A stretch of 64,000 nucleotides of DNA, taken from the NCBI GenBank assembly GCA_021850605.1, contig JAJZLQ010000046.1, positions 1 through 64,000 on the forward strand, read 5' to 3'. The DNA comes from Actinomycetes bacterium. Its GTDB lineage: Bacteria > Actinomycetota > Acidimicrobiia > Acidimicrobiales > Acidimicrobiaceae. The translations under genes were made by a program, and so were the position numbers. Position 1 is the stretch's first letter. Every line of letters starts with the position of its first letter. Of this stretch, positions 88-30,938 are shown piece after piece. The notes below the pieces were generated by a model. That model saw only the letters and a list, made by a program, of their open reading frames with translations. It had not been told where the DNA came from and did no database searches.

Positions 88-1377
88 ATGCGGTTCGTGC
101 CCGACGAAGGCACCTTTAAAGTCCACCTGGCATCAAGCCGACCTAGGGGTGTGGGAATCGACCTGGTCATAGTCGCGGACGAACGCACGAGCAGCAACGA
201 CTTCATCCGCCTCGCCCAATTGTCATCGGGAGCCGGCCAGCTGCTGGCATCGATCGGCTGCATCGCCTTGGATCAACGCGCGGCCGCACTCTGGTCCGCC
301 GTTCGAGAATCCCCGTTCTTACAAGGCCGTGTCCCCGCCCGCGCGGGGGACGGCGCGACCGATGCCGGAGAGGAGCTGGCGGCTGCGGTCGAAGCCGGCT
401 CAGCCTCATACATCGTCATCTCCGCACTTCACAATGTGGAGCTGACCCACCTGCTGGTCACGGCGGTTACCGCCGCCGAGCATCACGGCGTCTCGTTGTC
501 GGCATTCCCCCTGGGGGACGGGGGCGAACTTAGCCTTATGCTGCCGCGCGACAGGTGGGCACCTCCCCCGGGCGGGGCAAGCGCGCCAAGTGCCCGATCG
601 CTGGTGGAATCGGTTGCAGCACACCTTCTGGCTCTCGGCCCACCGGCGGCGGAGGCCGAAGTAACCAAGATCTGGGTGGTGGATAGGCGGACCGACGAGC
701 GCCCCGGCGCCACACGGCAGCCCGGTCTCGCGCCCGTCCTGACCGTGGTCATCCCGACGCTCGACGCGTCCTCGGAGCGGACCTGCCGCCTGCTGGACTC
801 CCTACGCAGCCACACGACGGTGCCTTTCCAGGTGGTCCTGGTCGACAACGGAAACTCCCCGCAGGGGTTCACCGCTCCGGTCAACACCGCGCTGGGGGCG
901 GCACGCACCCGGTACATCGCCATCGTCAACGATGACGTTCTGGTGCAGGAGGGGTGGTGGCAGCCGCTCCAGGACGCCCTCGATGCCGGAAGTGCCCTGG
1001 TCTTCCCGCACACCCTGGAATACACGCGGCCCGACTTTTCCGCCTGGTGCTTTGCCATGGCGCGCTCGACGCTGGAGGAGCTCTCCCTGCCGTCGGGAGA
1101 GTTCTTCGACCCGGCTTTCACCATCTGGTTTCAGGACACCGACCTCTACCTGCGCCTGAAAGAACGTGGCCAGGCGCCCCGGTATGTTCCGGACAGCCGG
1201 ATCTCTCACATCCCCTCGACAACGGTGGCCAGCGACGATCCGATACTGAAGCCGTGGATACGCGCACAGACCATCGCCGACCGGGATCGTTTTGTCGGCA
1301 AGTGGGGGCCGGGTGTACTGGCCGCCGTCGGCTTCGTCGATGCTCTCGACCCCCACCAGGCGAAGGAGCCGCTGTGA
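88..1377 (+). CDS. Glycosyltransferase family 2 (C-terminal GT-A domain) with an approximately 200-aa unassigned N-terminal region
   Basis: ORF; C-terminal half has GT2 hallmarks 'LTVVIPTLDASSERTCRLLDSL', 'VVLVDNGNS', 'IAIVNDDVLVQEGWW'. Confidence 0.8.
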   Translation: MRFVPDEGTFKVHLASSRPRGVGIDLVIVADERTSSNDFIRLAQLSSGAGQLLASIGCIALDQRAAALWSAVRESPFLQGRVPARAGDGATDAGEELAAAVEAGSASYIVISALHNVELTHLLVTAVTAAEHHGVSLSAFPLGDGGELSLMLPRDRWAPPPGGASAPSARSLVESVAAHLLALGPPAAEAEVTKIWVVDRRTDERPGATRQPGLAPVLTVVIPTLDASSERTCRLLDSLRSHTTVPFQVVLVDNGNSPQGFTAPVNTALGAARTRYIAIVNDDVLVQEGWWQPLQDALDAGSALVFPHTLEYTRPDFSAWCFAMARSTLEELSLPSGEFFDPAFTIWFQDTDLYLRLKERGQAPRYVPDSRISHIPSTTVASDDPILKPWIRAQTIADRDRFVGKWGPGVLAAVGFVDALDPHQAKEPL

Positions 1378-1430
1378 CCGTCCCCGCCATGGCGGCGCCG
1401 CTACGACTTTCCCCGACGGGGGAGTGAAAC

Positions 1431-2075
1431 TTGTTCGCCTTCGGAATCTGCATCGGCAACGAGGAAAAATACCGGAGCTACGCGCGACCTGGCCTCGAAA
1501 GGACCGTGCGTCCTGGCGACCTGGTGATCGAGTTGCGCCACCAGACATCGATACATTCCGCCTACAACAAAGTCCTGAACCACGTCCGCGGTCTGCCGGG
1601 CCTGGAATCCCTGGTGCTTTTGCATGAGGACCTGCAAATCTCCGACCGGCACTTCCGTTACAAGGTGGCCGGGGCGATGCAGGACCCCTCCGTGGGGGTC
1701 GCCGGGGCAATTGGCGCCGTCAACGTCACCTCGCTTGCCTGGTGGGAAGGCGAGATCCGCGGCGCTTTGGCCGAGTCGCGCTTCCGCGTGGAAGGCAACC
1801 TCGCCGAGAGGGAGGTTGAAACCCTGGACGGAGCGCTGCTTTGCCTCTCTCCGTGGGTGGTCAGGAACCACCGCTTCGACGAGGCCTACCAGGGATTCCA
1901 CGGCTACGACGCAGACCTCTGCTTCTCGGTGCGCGCGACGGGCAGAAGAGTCGTGGTCGCAAGCCTCGAACTCTTCCACCACACCAAGGGGGGTTATGGC
2001 GACATGCGCTCCTATTCCTCGAACGACCGCATCTTCCGCCAGAAGTGGATTCGCACCCCACAGCCGTCCGCCTAA
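1431..2075 (+). CDS. Glycosyltransferase-like protein (PF13712-like), TTG start
   Basis: ORF 'FAFGICIGNEEKYRSYARPGLER...LVLLHEDLQISD...GAIGAVN...DGALLCLSPWVVRNHRFDEAYQGFHGYDADLCF'; TTG preceded by GGGGGAG. Confidence 0.75.
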   Translation: MFAFGICIGNEEKYRSYARPGLERTVRPGDLVIELRHQTSIHSAYNKVLNHVRGLPGLESLVLLHEDLQISDRHFRYKVAGAMQDPSVGVAGAIGAVNVTSLAWWEGEIRGALAESRFRVEGNLAEREVETLDGALLCLSPWVVRNHRFDEAYQGFHGYDADLCFSVRATGRRVVVASLELFHHTKGGYGDMRSYSSNDRIFRQKWIRTPQPSA

Positions 2076-2132
2076 GCGCCGCGGATCGGGCGGTCCCGCT
2101 CGCAGCCGCCACCACGAAATGGAGCTGAGAAA

Positions 2133-2843
2133 ATGTCGTCCACCCCAACCCCGTCCAGATTGACTTCGGTGGACGCGTCCTATTACCAGAACGCGCGGCC
2201 CGAAATAGTCGAGCTGGTCCCCTTCTCGGCCAAGCGGGTCCTCGAGCTCGGTTGCGGCGAAGGGCGCACCGGAGCTGCGATAAAGCACCGCCAAGGAGCC
2301 TCCGTCACCGGGGTCGAACTGGAGCCGGCGGTGGCGTGTATCGCCTCCGAGGTGCTCGACGAAGTGCAACAAGCCGATCTCGATGACTTCGACTTCCCGT
2401 GGGGGGACGCGTACTTCGACTGCGTCGTCGCGGCTGACGTCCTCGAACATCTTCGGGATCCCTGGCGAGTGCTCAAGCAGGCGCACCGGCTGCTCTCACG
2501 GTACGGAGTGATCGTCGTGGGCGTCCCAAACGCCGGCTCCGTCGAGATCATCTCCGGCCTGATACAGGGCCGCTTCGACTACCAGGATGCGGGCCTGCTG
2601 GACAGGACACACCTTCGCTTTTTCACTCGCGCCACCTTCACTGAGGCGCTCGTGGACGCCGGATTCGTTCTGGCCAGGGCAAAGTCGATATTCGCGGCGC
2701 CCTCGGTGGAGCAGGGCCTGGTCAGCAGTCCCGCTCGCGGGACGCTGGACATCGGGGGAGCCGCGATTCGCTACGAGAGCGCCGAACAGCTGCGGGACCT
2801 ACTCACCTACCAGTGGGTCTTGGTCGGGATCAAAATGGATTAA
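2133..2843 (+). CDS. Class I SAM-dependent methyltransferase
   Basis: Motif I 'VLELGCGEGRTGAAI'; 'DCVVAADVLEHLRDPWRVL'. Confidence 0.85.
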   Translation: MSSTPTPSRLTSVDASYYQNARPEIVELVPFSAKRVLELGCGEGRTGAAIKHRQGASVTGVELEPAVACIASEVLDEVQQADLDDFDFPWGDAYFDCVVAADVLEHLRDPWRVLKQAHRLLSRYGVIVVGVPNAGSVEIISGLIQGRFDYQDAGLLDRTHLRFFTRATFTEALVDAGFVLARAKSIFAAPSVEQGLVSSPARGTLDIGGAAIRYESAEQLRDLLTYQWVLVGIKMD

Positions 2844-2966
2844 GCGGTGTCGGGCCGGGGATGACGAGGACACGCACGCACCGCACCCGGCAAAGTGAAA
2901 GGTCCCGGCCTGGAATTTCAGCGCCGGTACGGCCCTGAGCCTTCGCGCCGATGCGAGAAACGCCTC

Positions 2967-4181
2967 TTAGGCGGCGCAGGCACCGGTAGAAACGGCAGCA
3001 GTCGAGTTCTGAGCGGCGCTGATCTGCTGGGCGACTGCGGGCATGGCCAGAGCGAAGCCAACGTCGGGATTGGTGGTCGAACGAGAGAAGACCACGCCGA
3101 TCACGTTGCCTTGTAGGTCGACCAGAGGACCTCCCGAGTTGCCCGGGCGGACAATGGCCGCGATCTCGTAGACCAGCCGTGTGGTAACCCCTTGGTTGTA
3201 GATGTCACGGCCCTGCGCCTCGAAGGCGTCCATCACGCCGGCGGAGCTCGACGTGAGGGGGCCGCCGCCGGGATAACCCAGCACCACGCCCATTTCGCCA
3301 CGAGTCTTGACCGCCGTATCCACGGTCAGGGGCTTCTCGTACATCCCGCCCGCCCTCAGGATCGCGATGTCCAGCTCGGGATTGAACAGCACCACGGTGG
3401 CCGGGTGCTGGCCCGAGGCGTCGAAAATGGAGATGTTGTGGGTTCCCGCGACCACGTGGGCGTTGGTGACCACCTCCCCGGGAGCGACAACGAAGCCCGA
3501 CCCCTCCTGGATCTGGCCGCAACCAATGCCCTCGATCTTGACCACACTCGGTGCAACCCTGGAGACCACCGCCGCCACCTGGGCGGCCGAAGGCAGCGGT
3601 ACCGGCCCGGAGATGCTTGGCGGCAGTGTAGCGAAGACCGAGGGGAAGCCCTCGGAGCTGATGAAGCTCTCGATCCGGGAGAAAACCGCGGGGGTGGGGG
3701 GCATCACCTTGGAGAGCGTCTTTACGATCTTCGAGCTCGCCACCTGCGACGAAATGCCGGCAAGGGGCAGGTTGGCCACGACGGAGCCGATCAGCCAAAT
3801 GGCCAGGAGGGTGGCGACCACCGCGACAACGCTTCCCACCCCGGAGTCGACGCCACCCAGCTGATACTTGGTCAGCTTGGCGCCAAGCCGGTTCCCCAGC
3901 TGACGGCCGAACCCTCCGACAAGTGAAGCCGCGCCAAAAACCACGAAGAGCAGGACGACCGTACGCCAAAAGGAGGTGGCGGGAATCAAAGAGGCAATCG
4001 CGGGTGCAATCAACGCCCCGAGGAACATGCCCAGCCAAAAGCCACCGTAGGAGCCGAGCTGAACCGTGGCGCCGAGTTGCGCGCCGCGCACCGCCGCATA
4101 GCCGACACCGACGAGTATCAGCAGGTCCACCCAGTTGAAACCGGCGATGGCGACCGCCGCCAAAAGGTGAAGTCCGGTCAA
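2967..4181 (-). CDS. MarP-like membrane serine protease (CvpA-type TM domain plus trypsin-like domain)
   Basis: N-terminal hydrophobic CvpA-like region; protease triad motifs 'VTNAHVVAG', 'ELDIAIL', 'RPGNSGGPLV'. Confidence 0.85.
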   Translation of the reverse strand: MTGLHLLAAVAIAGFNWVDLLILVGVGYAAVRGAQLGATVQLGSYGGFWLGMFLGALIAPAIASLIPATSFWRTVVLLFVVFGAASLVGGFGRQLGNRLGAKLTKYQLGGVDSGVGSVVAVVATLLAIWLIGSVVANLPLAGISSQVASSKIVKTLSKVMPPTPAVFSRIESFISSEGFPSVFATLPPSISGPVPLPSAAQVAAVVSRVAPSVVKIEGIGCGQIQEGSGFVVAPGEVVTNAHVVAGTHNISIFDASGQHPATVVLFNPELDIAILRAGGMYEKPLTVDTAVKTRGEMGVVLGYPGGGPLTSSSAGVMDAFEAQGRDIYNQGVTTRLVYEIAAIVRPGNSGGPLVDLQGNVIGVVFSRSTTNPDVGFALAMPAVAQQISAAQNSTAAVSTGACAA

Positions 4182-4250
4182 ACCGGCACCCTGGGCTGGG
4201 AAGGTTTCTTCGGCGGCACGTCGATCATTCTAAGGGCGACGCACTCTCGG

Positions 4251-4266
4251 CTTGCGAATTCGCAAG
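4251..4266. repeat. Perfect 16-bp palindrome CTTGCGAATTCGCAAG
   Basis: Read directly; lies between the 3' end of the EAL gene and the start of the MarP-like gene. Confidence 0.9.
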
Positions 4267-4276
4267 ATAATGAGGG

Positions 4277-5977
4277 TCACTCCGCCACGAGCTCCAACTG
4301 GCTCTCGATCTGATCGCGATCCATCGGATGCCCGAGGTGGAATCCCTGGACCTTGTCTATGCCCAATTTCCGCATCAATCTGATCTGGCCGGCCTTCTCC
4401 ACTCCGATGCCGACGACCTCGGCCTTCAGCGAATGCGCGAGCTCGACCAGGCCGGAAAGCACGCCCCATGAGCGGGAGTTCTCCTCCAGCCCGAGGACCA
4501 TGGCCCTACCCAGCTTGACCTGGGAGACGTCGTACCGGGAGAAAACCGCCAGGGCACTGGCCCCTGAGCCGAACTCGTCCACGCTGAGGGCGATGCCCGC
4601 GGCGCCGATGCGGGCCACGGAGTCGTGACAGGTGCAGTCGAGATCGGGATGGATGTCGGAAAGTTCCACGTACACCGAGCCTTGCAGAAGCTCGAGAGCC
4701 TGGACCCTTTCGATGAGGGCGTTGGTCACCTCGGGCTCGTCCAACTCGTCGCCGGTGAGGTTTATATTGAGTGCGAGGCCGGAGTTGGGATAGGTCCTCA
4801 GCCAGCCGGCAAGAGCATCGAGCGCGCTGGAGATTACGAAGGTCCCCACCCTGGGGAGCCTGCCGATCTCTTTGGCTACTTGCATGAACTCGGCCGGGAA
4901 GAGCATTCCGCGGTCGGGATGGCGCATGCGAACCAGAGCCTCCACCCCTCCTATCCGACCGTTGTCGAGCGAGTAGATAGGTTGGAAGAGAAGTGCGAGG
5001 TCTTCGGAGTCGACGGCACGTCGCACCTCGTTCTCGAAAGTCTTGCGCGTACGGGCGTCCCTGGCGGACTCCATGTTCGAATAGAACTCAACCTTGGCCG
5101 GCCCACGCGACTTGGCACGCTCCTTGGCCGCCATTGCATGGGAGATGGCCTCGTGCGCATCGAGCCCCGCGTCGGAGAGAAGTGCCACTCCGATACTGGC
5201 GGTGACAACCACCTCCTCGCCTTCGGGCGCGACAACCGGGCTGTCCAGGACTTCCGCTGCGTCCTGGTCGGCAATTCCCGCGGCCAGGATTCCAAAACGG
5301 TCGATCTCCAGGTGAACCAGAATCTGGTCCGCGCCCAGGGAGTCCTCCAGGCGGTGACCCACCACCTTGAGAACCGCGCCGGCCCCGCCGGAGCCGATCG
5401 CCCGCTCGATGACACTGAAGCGGTCCACATCCACGACGATCAACGCCGCACCGGGAACGTCCCGTCCAAGCCTTGGACGGAGGAGCTCGTACTCGTGAAG
5501 CAGGTAGTCGCGCTGGCGCAACATCGTTACCGGGTCGAATCCAAACTCCTCGGGGGCCACCTCCTCCTGGTAGACCTGGTAATTAGGCTGCTCCGCACTC
5601 GGATCCGCCTGCGCGCCATCCCAGGTGACGTAGTCGTCCATGGGTTCCAGCGCTACCAGGAAGCTGTCAGGGTCTTCGGTTGATGCATGAATCAGGGCAC
5701 GGACCCGTACGTAGGATCCGCCTCCCTCCATCAAGCGCACTTCAACCTGGGTTGCCTCGTTTTCGTCGAAGAAAGTCTGCAACGCCGCCTCGAAGAGCTC
5801 GACGTCCGAGGGATGCACCACCACAGCCAGGTCAAGATTGTCCAGCTCGTTGGGTCCGTAGCCGAGTAGAGCGGCGAAGCCTTGGCTAGTGGCGTTCACG
5901 CGCCTTCCCGCGCGCGCGAGGGAGACCGTCGCCTCCCCGGATCCAACTCCAGCGTCCACTTCGATGTCGGTCTTCAT
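4277..5977 (-). CDS. PAS-GGDEF-EAL domain protein with degenerate GGDEF motif
   Basis: ORF; likely start 'MKTDIEVDAG'. 'EIDRF' occupies the GGDEF position; 'GVEALVRMRHPDRG' (EAL), 'QGFHLGHPM'. Confidence 0.8.
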   Translation of the reverse strand: MKTDIEVDAGVGSGEATVSLARAGRRVNATSQGFAALLGYGPNELDNLDLAVVVHPSDVELFEAALQTFFDENEATQVEVRLMEGGGSYVRVRALIHASTEDPDSFLVALEPMDDYVTWDGAQADPSAEQPNYQVYQEEVAPEEFGFDPVTMLRQRDYLLHEYELLRPRLGRDVPGAALIVVDVDRFSVIERAIGSGGAGAVLKVVGHRLEDSLGADQILVHLEIDRFGILAAGIADQDAAEVLDSPVVAPEGEEVVVTASIGVALLSDAGLDAHEAISHAMAAKERAKSRGPAKVEFYSNMESARDARTRKTFENEVRRAVDSEDLALLFQPIYSLDNGRIGGVEALVRMRHPDRGMLFPAEFMQVAKEIGRLPRVGTFVISSALDALAGWLRTYPNSGLALNINLTGDELDEPEVTNALIERVQALELLQGSVYVELSDIHPDLDCTCHDSVARIGAAGIALSVDEFGSGASALAVFSRYDVSQVKLGRAMVLGLEENSRSWGVLSGLVELAHSLKAEVVGIGVEKAGQIRLMRKLGIDKVQGFHLGHPMDRDQIESQLELVAE

Positions 5978-23039: not shown

Positions 23040-24221
23040 CTACTGGGGCAAGGGGAGCTCCGGATGCTCTCGGTGGAAAGCCAGAGCGACTTCCCTGGAA
23101 AGCTCCAGCAACGGCACGCCGAGTTCGGCCGAGGCCACGGCCAGATCGTCGAACTCTATCTTGGAGGAGTAGGGTCCGACCTTCACCCGATAGGCGCGTC
23201 CGGCGTAACGCACCTCCATTATCGTGCGCGATCCGGCGATGCGGACGAACGTCGAGACTCGAACCCCCAGCGACCCCGTAGCCCGCATCATCTCTTCTGC
23301 CAGCAAATCCCCCACCTCGTCGCGGCAAATTGCCGAGACGACCAGCGCCGGACGTCCTTTCTTGCCCGTCACGGGAGCTACCCAGGCGTCGAGTGCCCCC
23401 CGCCGCAACAAAGTCTCCAAAGCGGCGGCCACCGCCTCCCCACCACGGTCATCAAGATTCGTTTCGAGCAGCACAAATGCGCCCGATTCCGGCATGGTAG
23501 ACGGCCGGACTTCCACAAGAGATGCGTACAGGACGTTTGGCCGATCGTCCAGCTCGAGGGTTCCCGCGCCCATTCCCGTAGCCAGCAGCCTGTAACCAGC
23601 CAGCTCGGTAAGGGGCCTGGCGGAGGCGGCCAGAAGCGCCGCACCGGTTGGGGTGGCCAATTCGTGCCCCGTGACCCTCGACGTCAGATCGAAGCCGACC
23701 AGATGGGCCAAGGTGGCAGGCGCGGGAACCGGAAGCAGGCCGTGCTCGGTCCGCGCTGCGCCGGTGCCGGTCTCGATGCTGGAGACATAGACCCTGTCGG
23801 CACCAAGGTGTTCCAGGCCCATAGCGAAGCCAACGATGTCGGCGATCGTGTCCCATGCCCCTATCTCGTGAAGGTGGACCTGGTCGATGTCCTGGCCGTG
23901 CAGCTGGGCCTCCACTCCGGCGAGCCGTGCAAGCGAATCCAGCGCGAGCGCTTGCGCACGCGCTCCCAAACCGGTGCGCAAAATTATCTCCCTTATCTCG
24001 CGGTAGTGCCGGGGTGGTTGCACCACGGAGGTCACAACCTCGACCGCGAGTGCGGACATCGCGCCGCTGACACGGCGGACCGGCGTCACCACGACCCCTT
24101 CCAACCCGGCGGAGGCAAGGGCGGAGTTCAGGCGTTGGATCGGCAGGCCGAGATCAACCAGGGCCGCCAGCGCCATGTCGCCCGAGATCCCGCTGGGACA
24201 GTGGAGAACGAGCGCCTTCAA
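23040..24221 (-). CDS. larC: LarC-like nickel-pincer cofactor biosynthesis protein (DUF111), TTG start overlapping the larB stop
   Basis: 'PSGISGDMALAALVDLG', 'VHLHEIGAWDTIADIVG', 'ETNLDDRGGEAV'. Confidence 0.9.
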   Translation of the reverse strand: MKALVLHCPSGISGDMALAALVDLGLPIQRLNSALASAGLEGVVVTPVRRVSGAMSALAVEVVTSVVQPPRHYREIREIILRTGLGARAQALALDSLARLAGVEAQLHGQDIDQVHLHEIGAWDTIADIVGFAMGLEHLGADRVYVSSIETGTGAARTEHGLLPVPAPATLAHLVGFDLTSRVTGHELATPTGAALLAASARPLTELAGYRLLATGMGAGTLELDDRPNVLYASLVEVRPSTMPESGAFVLLETNLDDRGGEAVAAALETLLRRGALDAWVAPVTGKKGRPALVVSAICRDEVGDLLAEEMMRATGSLGVRVSTFVRIAGSRTIMEVRYAGRAYRVKVGPYSSKIEFDDLAVASAELGVPLLELSREVALAFHREHPELPLPQ

Positions 24222-24937
24222 GCACCGTCTCCGCTCTTCTCAGCCTTTCCGGCCACGATCCTCACCGCCGCGCAGGCTGCTCCGAAACCATTGTCGATGC
24301 CGACCACCGCCACTCCCGGCGCACAGGAGGCGAGCATGGACATCATCGCGGTGGACCCGGCAGCCGAAGCGCCATAGCCCACTGATGTCGGAACCGCGAT
24401 CACCGGATTCTGTACCAGCCCCCCCAGCACGGATGGAAGTGCCCCCTCCATTCCGGCCGCGACGATCAGAACGTCGAAGGAGCGCAGCTCGCCTATCTTT
24501 CCCAGCAGGCGGTGCAGGCCGGCAACCCCGATGTCCGGCACGTGCTGGTAGGGAATGCCGCAGGCGCGCAGGGTGGCAGCCGCCTCCTCGGCCACCGGGA
24601 TGTCAGTGGTGCCGGCCGTGATGACTCCAACGATTCCGGTACGACTTGGAGCGGAGCGAAGCACCACCGAGGCGAGCGCGTCGGGAAAAGCCACCGGGTC
24701 GGGGTGCACCCAGGACTCGGGATATACCTCCAGAAGAGCGGCGACCTGGGCACGTGCCGCCCTGGTTACAAGCACCGGGCCGGGGTCGGACTCAAGCATC
24801 TCGCCGGCCAGCGTCACCACCTGGGAGGGCGATTTGCCAGGTGCGAAGATTGCCTCGGGAATCCCGATGCGGTTATAGCGCAGGTGATCAAGCTCGGCGA
24901 ATGCGTCCAATTTCTTCCCCATCTCAGGAGCGCCCAA
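24218..24937 (-). CDS. larB: LarB-like nickel-pincer cofactor biosynthesis protein (AIR-carboxylase-like)
   Basis: 'VGVITAGTTDIPVAEEAAATLRACG', 'IVAAGMEGALPSVLGGLVQNPVIAVPTSVGYGAS'. Confidence 0.93.
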   Translation of the reverse strand: MGAPEMGKKLDAFAELDHLRYNRIGIPEAIFAPGKSPSQVVTLAGEMLESDPGPVLVTRAARAQVAALLEVYPESWVHPDPVAFPDALASVVLRSAPSRTGIVGVITAGTTDIPVAEEAAATLRACGIPYQHVPDIGVAGLHRLLGKIGELRSFDVLIVAAGMEGALPSVLGGLVQNPVIAVPTSVGYGASAAGSTAMMSMLASCAPGVAVVGIDNGFGAACAAVRIVAGKAEKSGDGA

Positions 24938-25028: not shown

Positions 25029-25973
25029 ATGACCGCCTTCACCTCCAAGCGAGTCGCCTACCTTGGACCAAGGGGAACCTTCACCGAAGAGGCGCTGCTC
25101 TCCCAGCCCGATCTCGCCTCCGGCGAGTTGGTGGAGATGGGGTCCATCGACAATGTTCTCGACGCTGTCGACAATGGGCAAGTCGACCTCGGTTTCGTTC
25201 CAATCGAGAACTCGATTGAGGGTACGGTACCAGCGACAATTGATTCGCTGGTGTTCGATCACGACCTCTACATCGAACGCGAGGTGGTGCACGATATCCA
25301 CCTTCATCTGCTGGGGCTCCAGAACGCGACGGTCGAGGGCATCCGCGAGGTCCACTCCTATCCGCACGCCCTGGGACAGTGCCGCAAGTTTCTAGCCGCC
25401 GAACTTCCTGGAGCCGGCATCCACGCAGCCAGCTCGACCGCCGAGGCAGCCCGCCTGGTTTCCGAGTGCGGTGATCCACATCTGGCGGCTATCGCACCCC
25501 GAGCCTCGAGGGATATTTACGGCCTGGAAACGCTCCGGGCCGATATCGAGGACCACGGTGGAAACCAGACCCGCTTCCTACTTGTGGGCAAAGGGATGGT
25601 GCCGGCTCCCACCGGCAACGATAAGACCTCGGTGGTCTGCTTCCAGGTCAAGGACCAGCCGGGTTCGCTGTTCAGCATCCTGGCCGAGTTCTACGCGCGC
25701 AATATCAACCTCACCAAGCTGGAATCCAGGCCGAGCAAGAGGGAACTCGGCCAGTACTGCTTTGTGATCGAATTCGACGGCCACGTCGCCGACCATGACG
25801 TCGCCGATGCGCTGGTCGGCCTGAAAGGCAAACTCGCCGACCTTAAGTTCCTCGGGTCGTTCCCCAAAGTGCGGGACGCACCCGCACCGAAACGGCCGTC
25901 GGTCCCGGCCCAGGATGCGGCCTGGAGCTGGCTCAGCTCCATTAGAAGTCAGATCGCCGACCCGCGGGAGTAA
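25029..25973 (+). CDS. pheA: Prephenate dehydratase (with ACT domain)
   Basis: 'VAYLGPRGTFTEEALL', 'VPIENSIEGTVPATIDSL', ACT region 'KDQPGSLFSILAEFYARNINLTKLESRPSK'. Confidence 0.96.
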   Translation: MTAFTSKRVAYLGPRGTFTEEALLSQPDLASGELVEMGSIDNVLDAVDNGQVDLGFVPIENSIEGTVPATIDSLVFDHDLYIEREVVHDIHLHLLGLQNATVEGIREVHSYPHALGQCRKFLAAELPGAGIHAASSTAEAARLVSECGDPHLAAIAPRASRDIYGLETLRADIEDHGGNQTRFLLVGKGMVPAPTGNDKTSVVCFQVKDQPGSLFSILAEFYARNINLTKLESRPSKRELGQYCFVIEFDGHVADHDVADALVGLKGKLADLKFLGSFPKVRDAPAPKRPSVPAQDAAWSWLSSIRSQIADPRE

Positions 25974-25984
25974 AGTGTCTCTCC

Positions 25985-26071
25985 GGAGGGATGGCAGAGC
26001 GGACAAATGCGAAGCACTTGAAATGCTTTGAGCCAAAAGCTCCGTGGGTTCGAATCCCACTCCCTCCGCCA
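25985..26071 (+). tRNA. tRNA-Ser (anticodon TGA), CCA encoded
   Basis: Cloverleaf read by eye: GGAGGGA acceptor, anticodon loop CTTGAAA, long variable arm, T-arm GGTTCGAATCC, 3' CCA. Confidence 0.93.
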
Positions 26072-26072
26072 A

Positions 26073-26162
26073 GGGTTAAATACAAAACTGACGAGGTCAC
26101 ACCTACAAAAGTGCATCACCAGAATGCACCATGGGTGTGACCTTCGTGTTTTACCCGGCTTT
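26073..26162. repeat. Palindromic dispersed repeat, copy A (core palindrome 26084-26152)
   Basis: GGGTTAAATACAAAACTGACGAGGTCACACCTACAAAAGTGCATCACCAGAATGCACCATGGGTGTGACCTTCGTGTTTT; near-identical to 29753-29842. Confidence 0.9.
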
Positions 26163-26184
26163 GGCCCGCTGAGGCCGCCTCGAA

Positions 26185-26884
26185 TTAGTTCCAGCCGACG
26201 ACGATTGTGCCTTCGGGGTGATTTCGGCGGAGGCTCCGCCGCCCGAGGCGTTGGGCTGAGGCCCGCTCAGGCGGGTCGGTAGTCCCGGATGTCCTCGAAC
26301 CTACGCGCCTGGCCCTCCGCCGGACGGGTTCGCCTTTTTCAGCCAGGCTCGCCAGCTTTCTAAGGTGGGCCGCGGCGAGCAGCAGGGCCACGAAGACGGC
26401 CTGTGCGGCGATGCCGCGCACCCGGCGACGGGCGGGAGCGGCCAGGGCCTGGCGGCTAGGGTCCTGAGAGGGAAGGGCCTCGAAGTGGGTATCGGCCAAG
26501 GTGGCCACGAACATCTCGGCTCGGGGGTCGTGCTCTAACAGCATGGACAGTCGCAGCGCCTTGGAGTGTTGGCGGATGCGCCCGCCAGATGCGGTAAACG
26601 TCTCTCCCGCCGTTGTTTGCCACTTCACGGGTCACCGTGCTTGGCGAACGCCCCAGTCCATGAGCGATGGCGCTCATGGACATCTGGGTCTTCAGGCCCA
26701 GGGCGATGGCTTCGCGCTCGTCGAGCGTAAGCCTGCCTGGCCGTGGCGCCCAGTAGTCGTCGCGCCCGTCGCGAAGCTGGGTGCCCGAAAGAACGACGTG
26801 CAGGTGCGACGGTCCCGAACAGCTGATCTGTTTGGCGATTTCCCGAAAGGTGCCGCCCTTGGCGCGCAGTCTTGGTCGTCTCAA
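26185..26884 (-). pseudogene. Transposase remnants: IS30-like N-terminal HTH plus an out-of-frame C-terminal transposase-like fragment
   Basis: 'GRLTLDEREAIALGLKTQMSMSAIAHGLGRSPSTVTREVANNGGRDVYR' (IS30 HTH) breaks; another frame carries 'RRRVRGIAAQAVFVALLLAAAHLRKLASL', typical of a transposase C-terminus; no DDE core. Confidence 0.65.
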
Positions 26885-26961
26885 GAAATAACGGAAAAGG
26901 CACCTTGCGGGGGGATCGGCACAAAGATGGTTTACGAACGGAACTGAAAGGACGGACGGAC

Positions 26962-27903
26962 ATGAGTAACGCTCCTCGAACTATCGCGGTCGTCGGCACC
27001 GGCGTCATCGGGGCCAGCTGGGCCGCCTACTATCTAGCCCGCGGCTTCAAGGTGGCTGCCTCCGATCCCGCAGAAGGAGCCGAAGGACGCCTGCGTGCCA
27101 TGATCGACGAGTTCTGGCCTGCGCTCGAAACGATCGGCCTTGCGGACGGCGCGAGCCGCAAGAACCTGACCTTTTCCGCGTCGATTCCCGACGTTGTCCA
27201 CGAGGCCGATTTCGTCCAGGAGAACGGTCCGGAGCGCTTGGAAATCAAGCGTTCGGTACTTGCCGAGATCGAAACGTCCCTGGCTCAAGACACCCTGATC
27301 GCCAGCTCGAGCTCAGGCCTGTTGATCTCCGAGGTTCAAGAAGGCATGAAACATCCCGAGCGCATGGTGCTCGGGCACCCATTTAACCCGCCGCACCTGA
27401 TCCCCCTCGTTGAAGTCCTCGGGGGCCGGCACACCTCTCTGGAGAACGTCGACAAGGCTCTGGCTTTCTACACCGAGATTGGAAAGAAGCCGATCCGGAT
27501 CAATAAGGAAGTGCCGGGCCACGTTGCCAACCGGCTCCAGACCGCGCTTTGGCGGGAAATGTTCCACCTTGTGAGTACCGGTGTGGCGAGTGTAAAGGAC
27601 ATCGATACCGCCATCTCCCAGGGACCGGGCCTGCGCTGGGCGCTGCTCGGCCCTTTCCTCAACCTGCACGCCTCCGGCGGCTCCGGCGGAATCACCCACG
27701 TTCTTGAACACCTGGGCCCAGCCATGCGAGAGTGGTCCCGATCGCTTGGCGAGTACCCCGAGACCGACGACTACATCACCACCATGGCCGAAGGCGTCGA
27801 GGAGGAACTCTCCGGCTTCGACTGGACAGAAACGCTACGGGAGCGCGACGAACTGGTGATCCGGCTCCTGGACGCAAAAAAGGACAGCCCACAGATCCCC
27901 TAG
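26962..27903 (+). CDS. 3-hydroxyacyl-CoA dehydrogenase / L-carnitine dehydrogenase-like protein
   Basis: 'IAVVGTGVIGASWAAYYLARGFKVAASDP', 'ASSSSGLLISEVQ', 'GHPFNPPHLIPLVEVLGG', 'VPGHVANRLQTALWRE'. Confidence 0.92.
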   Translation: MSNAPRTIAVVGTGVIGASWAAYYLARGFKVAASDPAEGAEGRLRAMIDEFWPALETIGLADGASRKNLTFSASIPDVVHEADFVQENGPERLEIKRSVLAEIETSLAQDTLIASSSSGLLISEVQEGMKHPERMVLGHPFNPPHLIPLVEVLGGRHTSLENVDKALAFYTEIGKKPIRINKEVPGHVANRLQTALWREMFHLVSTGVASVKDIDTAISQGPGLRWALLGPFLNLHASGGSGGITHVLEHLGPAMREWSRSLGEYPETDDYITTMAEGVEEELSGFDWTETLRERDELVIRLLDAKKDSPQIP

Positions 27904-28040
27904 CGACGCCGGGTCATGCACCGACGGTCGTCATCAAGGCGAAATGGGTCGCGGATGCGACATCCTTCATCAGTCCTGGGGGCCTTCTCCGAAGGGGAGG
28001 CTGGCCCGCGTGGTAGCGGTCGGCGGTGCAGTTTTGGGGG

Positions 28041-28903
28041 CTATGCGGCGGGTTCGGGAACGTCCGCTCCGATGTGTTTGCGCAGCCTCGACCATGGTGC
28101 CGGCGTAGCGATGAGGCGATCAGCCAGCCGGGAGGCCACCGTCTCGTAGTTGACCCACCAACCCCGGAAGTCAGGCCAAGCCTCTTCGGCCGTGCGTTCC
28201 ATGGGAAGCCGACGTCGGCCGGCATTGCGACCGCACGCTCGAACTCGGCGTAGCGAAGGTCGATCGGCCCCTCGGGACTGGGGCCGGGGTCGACGGTCCA
28301 GCCAACGGTGGTGCGGGTCCGGTCGAGGCAAATGAAGCCCTTACGCGGGCACAGGCGGGCGTTGGACCAGGCGGTGCTCGGTGCGACGGCAAGATGCAGG
28401 GCGGCCCCGTCGAGCATGCAAGTAGCGCCGAGAGCCACGAGTACCACGGCTCCGAAGAACGGAACAACAGCAGCACGGGATAGGACGTGTGGCTCTTGGC
28501 GATCTGGAGCGCCCATTCCTCCCAGGCCGCGTACAACTCGGGCAGGGTGTCGATAATGCCGACAAGCTGGTGGCGAGCGAGCAGTTCCGGCCCCCACGCG
28601 GGCAGACCGGACCTGCTCTCGAGCATGGCGAAACCCTTGCGCTCGTAGAAGTGCAAAGTCAAGGGCCGGGAGATAGGCGATCTGGAGCGCCACCACGACC
28701 ACCCACGTCGAGCCCGCCGCGACGTCTATCGGCACGTCGGCCGGGCGGGCGAGGACGACGAATCCCAGCCGCACCGACCGGTCGACGAGCATCGAAATCC
28801 GCTCGAGTCGCGATGCCCGACGTGGGAGCACCATCGCGAAAAGAACCCCTTGCACGGTCGGGAGGATCACGACGAGGCCGACCGCGAAGAGGATCTGGCT
28901 CAC
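28041..28903 (-). pseudogene. Multiply frameshifted actinobacterial membrane-protein-like gene
   Basis: Protein-like segments occur consecutively in three frames: 'MSQILFAVGLVVILPTVQGVLFAMVLPRRASR...VVVVALQIAYLPAL', 'LHFYERKGFAMLESRSGLPAWGPELLARHQLVGIIDTLPELYAAWEEWALQIAKSHTSYPVLLLFRSSEPWYSWLSALLA', 'GAALHLAVAPSTAWSNARLCPRKGFICL...IDLRYAEFERAVAMPADVGFP', 'ERTAEEAWPDFRGWWVNYETVASRLADRLIATPAPWSRLRKHIG'. Confidence 0.75.
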
Positions 28904-29091
28904 GTCGTATCGCCTCCTTTGGGGTGAGACATCGACCTAGAGTACTGACGGGAGGCCGTCCACCTCCGGAAAGGGAATGGAAGGCCCGGATCGCTCGCCT
29001 TTGAGGTCTGGCGTGGTGAAGAGTTGGAGTACCGAGGCAGCTGTCGCACGCACCTCGCCGGGTACGAATCTTTGAAAAGAGGGAGGCAGGA

Positions 29092-29427
29092 GTGGAGAAA
29101 GAGCGGGCGCGGGAACTGCTCGAGGCTGAGCGCACTCGGCTTCAGGCCTTGCTGGCCGACGCAGCCAAGTCGGGGCGAGCCGACCGGTCAGCCGAGGACG
29201 AGCCCGGAGACTGGGGGGATCGGGCCGAGCCGCTCACGGCCGAAGGCACCAACGATGCCGTCGTGGCCGGGCTCAACGCCCGGCTGGAAGCCCTGAAGCG
29301 CGCCGAAGATCGCCTGGCCGCCGGAACCTACGGCCTATCCGTGCTGAGCGGGCGGCCGATCCCCGACGACCGGCTCGAAGCCGACCCTGCTGCGGAACTG
29401 ACCATCGACGAGGCGAACCGACCGTGA
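29092..29427 (+). CDS. DksA/TraR-like protein lacking zinc-finger cysteines
   Basis: 'ALKRAEDRLAAGTYGLSVLSGRPIPDDRLEADPAAELTIDEA' matches the DksA/TraR C-terminal pattern with CxxC replaced. Confidence 0.75.
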   Translation: MEKERARELLEAERTRLQALLADAAKSGRADRSAEDEPGDWGDRAEPLTAEGTNDAVVAGLNARLEALKRAEDRLAAGTYGLSVLSGRPIPDDRLEADPAAELTIDEANRP

Positions 29428-29752
29428 CGCCCTCGCCTACGTCCTCACAAGGCGGGGCTTCGCCGGTGCCGAGTTGCGTGCCTCTGGGCCCATAAGTTTG
29501 CGGTCTTTGGATCCGCCGACGCCATGAGGGGGGCGGCCGCGAACGCCCGGTCCCGCGATCGTGCTCCGTGGGCTATCCACCAGGCTTACTCGGTCGACGA
29601 CCTCGGCGGATGGCAGGTATACGACGGCGCCACGACCGGCGGGTTCGACCAGGACGATCTCGACGGCCTGCTTGGCGGCATCTTCGGGCGAGGCGGTCGA
29701 ACCGGCCCGGCCCGTCGAGCGGATCAGGTACCAATACCAGTGTTGGCGTGGG

Positions 29753-29842
29753 GGGTTACCTACAAAACTGACGAGGTCACAGCCACAAAAGTGCATCACC
29801 GGAACGCACCATGGGTGTGACCTTCGTGTTTAAATCCGGCTT
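29753..29842. repeat. Palindromic dispersed repeat, copy B
   Basis: GGGTTACCTACAAAACTGACGAGGTCACAGCCACAAAAGTGCATCACCGGAACGCACCATGGGTGTGACCTTCGTGTTTA; same orientation as copy A. Confidence 0.9.
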
Positions 29843-29921: not shown

Positions 29922-30938
29922 TCAGTCCTGGAAACGAACCGCTACACGCCTGCCATTGGTGGGAAGGGGAAGAAGCTCCGCTTCAGCCACCACTGCGTCG
30001 CGCTCACCGGGGGAAAGCGATCTCCACGACTGCACGACAAGACTGGTTCCGGCGCGGCGCCAGGTACCGGTTATCTCTCCTTCGATCAGGAGAGCTCCCG
30101 GCCAAACTCTCGAGGTCCAGAGCTGCGCCCGCCTCATGCAGTCTTCGACGAGAAGTTCCCGGTCACGATCCCAGGCCAGAAAGTACGCATCGCCACTGGG
30201 AACTAGGCGCACCGGCGCCGGTCGAGACTCCTCCTCCGCAGCAGTAGCCACGTCCGGTCCAAGCATCCACGCCAGTCCGATCGGGGTCTCGACCGGCAGG
30301 AGCTGGTTGGAGAGCGCCCGGAAGGCCGCCTGGGCCGCGGCCACGCCGATGCCCGCCCAACGGCCGAACGACTCGGCGGTAGTCGGACCGAAGACCTGGA
30401 GATACCGTCGGGCCAACTCCAGCCTTGCCTCCCGCGGGTCCACGTCTGGCGGCGGAACGGTCCAGACGGCCGGGCATCCGGCCCCTTCCCAGCGTATGAG
30501 TACCGTGCCGGTCGCCGCCGCATAGCGCAGCGCATTGGGATTCACGCCCAGTCCCGCCCCCGCCTGGTCGTAGGGCATCGAGGTGCCGGCGAGGTGGCTC
30601 TCGAGCCGGGCGGCAAGCTCGGTCGCACGGGCAAAGCCCTTGGCATCATCGGGCATGGTTCCCAGGGAGAACACCGCAATGTCGTCCTTGGCCACGGCGT
30701 AGATGTTAAACCGCGGACCCCAAAGCTGCACTAGCCCCGGCTCCTCCCAAACGTCGCGCCTGGTTCCTTCCATGCGTGCGTGGATCGAGAGCATTGCCGC
30801 CCTCGGCATCGAATCCTGCAGCCCGGCGAAGGCAGCCACGCGCAACGAGTCCGCCGACGGCGGGAGGCGCTGGTCGAGCGCCCCGGCACGTCGGCGGTAA
30901 GACAATATCTGCGATCTGGAAAGGACCGGTGGATTCAT
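29922..30938 (-). CDS. Winged-helix DNA-binding protein (AlkZ/YcaQ-like, HTH_42 family)
   Basis: 'LSRSQILSYRRRAGALDQRLP', 'LQDSMPRAAMLSIHARM', 'VQLWGPRFNIYAVAKDDIAVFSLG', 'RRYLQVFGPTTAESFGRWAGI'. Confidence 0.75.
   Translation of the reverse strand: MNPPVLSRSQILSYRRRAGALDQRLPPSADSLRVAAFAGLQDSMPRAAMLSIHARMEGTRRDVWEEPGLVQLWGPRFNIYAVAKDDIAVFSLGTMPDDAKGFARATELAARLESHLAGTSMPYDQAGAGLGVNPNALRYAAATGTVLIRWEGAGCPAVWTVPPPDVDPREARLELARRYLQVFGPTTAESFGRWAGIGVAAAQAAFRALSNQLLPVETPIGLAWMLGPDVATAAEEESRPAPVRLVPSGDAYFLAWDRDRELLVEDCMRRAQLWTSRVWPGALLIEGEITGTWRRAGTSLVVQSWRSLSPGERDAVVAEAELLPLPTNGRRVAVRFQD

Follow-up and report, generated by a model that had tools for sequence, protein, structure and literature searches.

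In all likelihood, a DDE-type transposon specific for the 3′ edge of tRNA genes inserted twice in succession beside tRNA-Ser, and copies A and B of the repeat are the ends of these insertions that face the tRNA. The element would insert in one orientation, its right end falling 4 nt beyond the discriminator base and the tRNA staying intact, and each insertion would duplicate 5–6 bp from the discriminator onward, as observed in intact relatives. A first insertion 3′ of tRNA-Ser would have left copy B, and a second, between tRNA-Ser and copy B, would have brought in copy A together with some or all of the islet that separates the copies, with decay since. We infer that the islet arrived with this second insertion. 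The DDE protein would perform the chemistry, and a catalytically degenerate recombinase-like protein may recognize the tRNA gene and position the insertion, as TnsF does in Tn6022. It is also rather probable that these remnants represent an undescribed, actinobacteria-wide class in which a catalytically dead tyrosine recombinase directs the DDE transposase to 4 nt past the discriminator of many tRNAs; its palindromic ends have changing, still-pairing stems, and its members are annotated only as hypothetical proteins. The family is apparently undescribed: no match was found in the open-licence literature for papers on DUF6788 or on tRNA-targeting bacterial DDE transposons outside Tn7.

Repeats and islet at tRNA-Ser

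The two near-identical repeats of the same orientation that the original prediction placed at 26073 and 29753 were recovered in the window (the whole stretch of 64,000 nucleotides that was analyzed) as 79-bp copies on the same strand, identical at 73 of 79 nt (92%). Their similarity extends to about 109 nt at 87% identity. The tRNA-Ser(TGA) gene ends at 26071 and copy A starts at 26073, one base beyond the CCA, as had been noted. Copy A folds far more stably than its shuffles (z = -4.85), and the fold of copy B is weaker (z = -2.6). The features of the region are as follows; G003 and G004 are related genomes, and G010 is a genome with a full-length transposase.

25985-26071, + strand: tRNA-Ser(TGA), the insertion target (ARAGORN); in G003 this gene stands without the element
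26068-26072, + strand: GCCAA, comprising the discriminator base, CCA and one base; this is the stretch duplicated in intact insertions elsewhere
26073-26151, + strand: copy A, the tRNA-facing (right) end of the putative younger transposon
26073-26094, + strand: terminal repeat GGGTTAAATACAAAACTGACGA, a decayed version of the conserved terminal hairpin stem-CGACAAAA-stem
26093-26145, no strand: subterminal inverted repeat GAGGTCACACC...GGGTGTGACCTTC (from the sequence, with the fold z of -4.85; conserved in relatives)
26305-26466, - strand: remnant of a transposase C-terminus, convergent with the tRNA (83% identity to residues 408-461 of the full G010 protein)
26456-26884, - strand: HTH_38 fragment, IS30-like N-terminus (Pfam PF13936, E = 3.7e-15)
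26962-27903, + strand: intact accessory gene resembling 3-hydroxyacyl-CoA/carnitine dehydrogenases (PF02737, E = 1.8e-43)
27914-28903, - strand: broken reading frame or frames (ORF call), membrane-protein-like according to the original prediction
29092-29427, + strand: gene for a DksA/TraR-like small protein (TIGR02890, E = 3.8e-9, under its cut-off)
29753-29831, + strand: copy B, the right end of the putative older insertion, moved off the tRNA and equivalent to the single copy of G004
29922-30938, - strand: AlkZ-like DNA glycosylase gene, the far boundary of the junction (PF06224, E = 6.4e-24)

The predicted islet contents were recovered as transposase remnants, a dehydrogenase-like gene and a DksA-like gene; the supposed frameshifted membrane protein matched no family in Pfam and NCBIfam profile searches. 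A transposase profile matched the window at 26347-26466, and the adjoining HTH_38 fragment is probably a later insertion or junk. The dehydrogenase-like gene, which is absent from relatives, scored 298.9 bits against the NCBIfam L-carnitine dehydrogenase profile, under the cut-off of 414. The islet interior (26470-29750) had no substantial match among 36 other genomes and is a decayed insertion of uncertain make-up. A search of the islet for a left terminal repeat found none, and no GCCAA duplicate is preserved ahead of copy B in the window; the second-insertion step is therefore read from relatives. Two further observations concern the neighborhood of pheA. An ARAGORN call of tRNA-Glu at 25122-25217 falls within the pheA frame and is probably a false positive, and two ORFs upstream of pheA (23040-24937, - strand) resemble by eye larC- and larB-type nickel-pincer cofactor genes.

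Intact elements and their proteins

The repeat occurs 8 times in the genome to which the window belongs (2.56 Mb in 154 contigs). Seven of the eight copies start directly 3′ of a tRNA, each of a different one (Ser-TGA, Leu-TAA, Gly, Leu-CAA, Lys, Ser-CGA and Met) and always in the direction of the tRNA; the exception is copy B. About 34 other tRNA genes, of about 41, have no repeat. Four further genomes of the same genus contain copies, nearly all directly 3′ of tRNAs, and nucleotide search of 48 genomes of other genera found none. Several copies lie at contig ends, and several are backed by a transposase ORF or remnant. A DUF6788 gene is also present elsewhere in this genome (G000:C18:42350-42640, L184).

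Better-kept copies are IS-like elements of about 3 kb that carry, between terminal inverted repeats, genes for a DUF6788 protein, a degenerate tyrosine-recombinase-like protein and a transposase of the DDE type. In G010, the repeat at tRNA-Glu is followed by a full convergent ORF of 472 aa, an ORF of 244 aa and a DUF6788 ORF. The element of G024 (L102, on a contig shared with L119) spans 2695 to about 5842 and consists, in order, of the terminal repeat GGGCTAGCGACAAAACTAGTCC, DUF6788, a 258-aa protein, a 546-aa transposase, the non-coding right end and the terminal repeat GGGCTAGCGACAAAACTAGCCC; its right end is followed by GCAAGT and then tRNA-Glu, and GCAAGT is also found outside its left end. 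A TnpB-like (IS605-type) gene lies at 787-2016 of L102, just outside this element. Complete Acidimicrobiales elements have three ORFs only. The right end includes about 200 bp of structured non-coding DNA, and left ends with the same terminal motif were observed in more than 10 Acidimicrobiales loci (at least 10 in one count), about 1250–1420 bp before the transposase.

Target and ends are read directly from the sequence at these loci; transposition itself is predicted. Exact target duplications of 5–6 bp were found at L119 (GCAAGT), L124 (ACCAA), L126 (GCCAA), L131 (TCCAC) and L107 (ACTCC); the duplication is imperfect or lost at L120, L125, L130 and L133 and in the window. Clean duplications were therefore present in about 5 of the 9 elements with both ends readable. 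With the acceptor stem as reference, the distance from the discriminator to the element end is 4 nt in 18 of the 23 cases; it is 3 nt in three others and 5 nt in the remaining two. This spacing leaves the tRNA whole and makes the duplicated stretch begin at the discriminator base; it holds regardless of base identity and of whether CCA is encoded. Three relatives have no element at the tRNA of L119; an exact empty site was not found among the relatives compared, because the flanks had diverged.

The end that abuts the tRNA is a hairpin with a conserved tip (CGACRAA-like), and the terminal stems vary in sequence yet still pair. Swapping half-sites between elements weakened the mean fold from -10.7 to -6.5 kcal/mol (standard deviation 0.4), a difference inflated by relatedness since the sequences are not independent. 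Because the loops differ in length, stem pairing had shown up only weakly in an earlier scan that assumed a loop of 8 nt.

The 472-aa protein of G010 fell under all Pfam and NCBIfam cut-offs and showed a faint DDE transposase resemblance. Residues D183, D297 and E475, together with R471 and K482, were invariant in 31 of 31 transposase sequences. The AlphaFold2 model of the transposase was confident (pLDDT 88.7) and had the P element transposase as its best match among solved structures, a weak one (E = 2e-3). The middle protein matched XerC-like, XerA and XerD profiles, and its AlphaFold2 model (pLDDT 91.6) matched Cre and XerA in Foldseek; it has a tyrosine-recombinase fold. Its active site is decayed: the first Arg was present in 13 of 25 sequences, the catalytic Tyr in 16 of 25 and the His of HxxR in 2 of 25. 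By analogy with TnsF, this protein may select the target.

History of the site and alternative explanations

The stepwise history of the site is visible across relatives. G003 has the identical gene order at pheA–tRNA-Ser–AlkZ without the repeat, G004 (a closer relative than G003) has one copy of about 113 bp there, and the window has pheA–tRNA-Ser, copy A, a 3.6-kb islet, copy B and AlkZ. In both G003 and G004 the AlkZ-like gene directly follows the tRNA region, and the repeat was absent at tRNA-Ser in G003, G005, G002, G007, G008 and G001. The single-repeat junction that the original prediction anticipated in a relative was thus found in G004. A parallel arrangement was observed in another genus: in G012 (L107), a tRNA-Leu is followed by two direct right-end copies about 3.9 kb apart, and ACTCC is exactly duplicated between them. 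This tandem is an intact version of the A/B layout, with a new element inserted between the tRNA and the old one.

The original prediction regarded the islet as a decayed mobile unit or as the product of recombination between two dispersed palindromic elements. The former holds insofar as mobile-element debris lies beside the tRNA; the copies are not the attachment sites of a single islet, since the repeat sits beyond the tRNA and G003 has none there. Recombination between two dispersed transposon ends, in place of a second insertion, is unlikely. Copies A and B are more than 90% identical and could recombine, and the islet has no identifiable left end, but G004 already holds one copy at the tRNA-Ser site, so recombination would also have had to import unrelated DNA, and L107 displays the second-insertion route directly, with its exact target duplication. 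An integrative island mobilized by a catalytically active tyrosine recombinase, with the repeat as its attachment core and A and B as attL and attR of one islet, is quite improbable. Tyrosine integrases typically integrate 3′ of tRNAs, the elements do encode a recombinase-like protein, and A and B are direct repeats around accessory DNA; however, the repeat is outside the tRNA and missing from the same site in G003, intact elements carry inverted terminal repeats, and many members have lost catalytic residues of the recombinase-like protein whereas the DDE triad is invariant. A candidate duplication of an attachment site in the window, a 26-nt stretch ahead of copy B in register with the 3′ end of tRNA-Ser (13 of 26 positions matching), was dropped as evidence because about 0.9% of window positions match equally well.

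A host-owned tRNA 3′ trailer or terminator hairpin, homogenized by gene conversion with no mobile element involved, would account for a strong hairpin that is always at a tRNA 3′ end in transcript orientation and whose terminal stems still pair as the sequence changes. This explanation is scarcely credible, since the repeat is found at only 7 of about 41 tRNAs, tRNA-Ser of G003 lacks it, several copies are backed by a transposase ORF or remnant, and target duplications and matching left ends contradict it.

Related systems and distribution

Tyrosine integrases are the usual explanation for insertion beside tRNAs, and Tn7-like elements for DDE transposition with a selected target. Integrase-borne tRNA islands share with the proposed transposon the tRNA 3′ end as landing site and the recombinase fold, but here the repeat has no tRNA-identity core, the insertions have a 5–6 bp duplication and inverted ends, and the active site is degenerate, with the complete R-H-R-Y set of such islands lacking. 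The insertions of Tn7 and of Tn7-like transposons associated with CRISPR lie a set distance past a conserved gene that is left unbroken, and some of the CRISPR-associated ones home to tRNA genes. The fixed distance beyond an unbroken conserved gene is common to both; the transposase differs, and no TnsABC/TniQ set (TnsB/TnsC/TniQ-type) was found among the three ORFs of complete Acidimicrobiales copies, a TniA-TniB fusion occurring upstream in 8 Streptomyces loci only. IS1182/IS4-type elements have a DDE triad with a Y-R-E-K region and faint C-terminal similarity (NCBIfam E from 1e-5 to 0.04). The transposases scored 12.9–24.6 bits against the NCBIfam IS1182 profile (at most 25 of the cut-off of 270), and the present elements differ in two extra genes and strict tRNA targeting.

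The nearest mechanism is that of TnsF, an inactivated tyrosine recombinase shown experimentally to be the target selector that sends the Tn7-like Tn6022 to comM (Faure et al. 2023, PMC10293859). Both systems combine DDE transposition with a protein that has an inactivated tyrosine-recombinase domain, and both have one fixed chromosomal target. That target is comM in Tn6022 and tRNA 3′ ends here; the Acidimicrobiales elements encode three proteins only, without a TnsC-type ATPase or TniQ, and their transposase is IS1182-like at best. In target choice, the nearest analog is Dada, a eukaryotic family of DNA transposons with tRNA or snRNA genes as their specific insertion sites (PMC3706591). Dada is eukaryotic, whereas the present insertions lie beside the tRNA and have so far been seen in Actinobacteria only. 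The family looks like an independent solution, IS-sized, with a recombinase-derived partner and one exact position 3′ of many tRNAs. It is overlooked by Pfam and NCBIfam, would represent a new route by which mobile DNA finds a safe landing site, and may account for tRNA-flanking repeats and contig breaks in Acidimicrobiales MAGs. It would also be a simple system in which to ask how an inactivated recombinase is reused for targeting, and could serve as a compact insertion tool for a benign site.

With the G010 transposase as query, relatives were found in 25 of 60 genomes, other genera included, many with a tRNA facing the 3′ end of the ORF. A scan of a collection with one genome per species (84,980 species) gave 60 loci, all in Actinobacteria. 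A convergent tRNA lay within 450 bp at 44 of the 55 testable named loci and a same-strand tRNA at none; the 44 are not independent, since the many Streptomyces loci at tRNA-Leu(CAG), which share long synteny, probably represent largely one inherited insertion, as suggested by alignments that continue through the flanks. Left ends were sought in Streptomyces members and not found. When the Streptomyces Leu-CAG loci were left aside, the targets still included Glu, Tyr, Gly, Ala, Arg, Ser, Val, Pro and Leu. Among the rest of the 55, the tRNA of L123 was partly masked, four loci abutted tRNA 3′ halves, L177 had a convergent tRNA at 783 bp, and no tRNA was found at the element end of five. At L122, L125, L131 and L149, and in L044 at 1466-1547, the transposon end adjoins a tRNA 3′ half alone; such loci look like tRNAs split by an integrase-type island that arrived later. 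When 397 more genomes of the phylum were sampled, 20 had matches, with a facing tRNA at about 15 of 22 loci; this sample adds Met and Tyr cases, and one of its loci repeats an earlier one. No relative of the transposase was found in viral contigs. Its relatives on sequenced plasmids carry hypothetical-protein annotations.

In 8 Streptomyces loci (L156, L152, L163, L147, L153, L168, L150 and L158, at about 700-5900), the degenerate recombinase and DDE genes follow the TniA-TniB fusion and a small ORF in one apparent operon, and element and flanks look vertically inherited at tRNA-Leu(CAG). A distant DDE relative was observed on a linear Streptomyces plasmid (L219, NZ_CP109164.1, 5904-8686), with a hypothetical-protein gene directly upstream.
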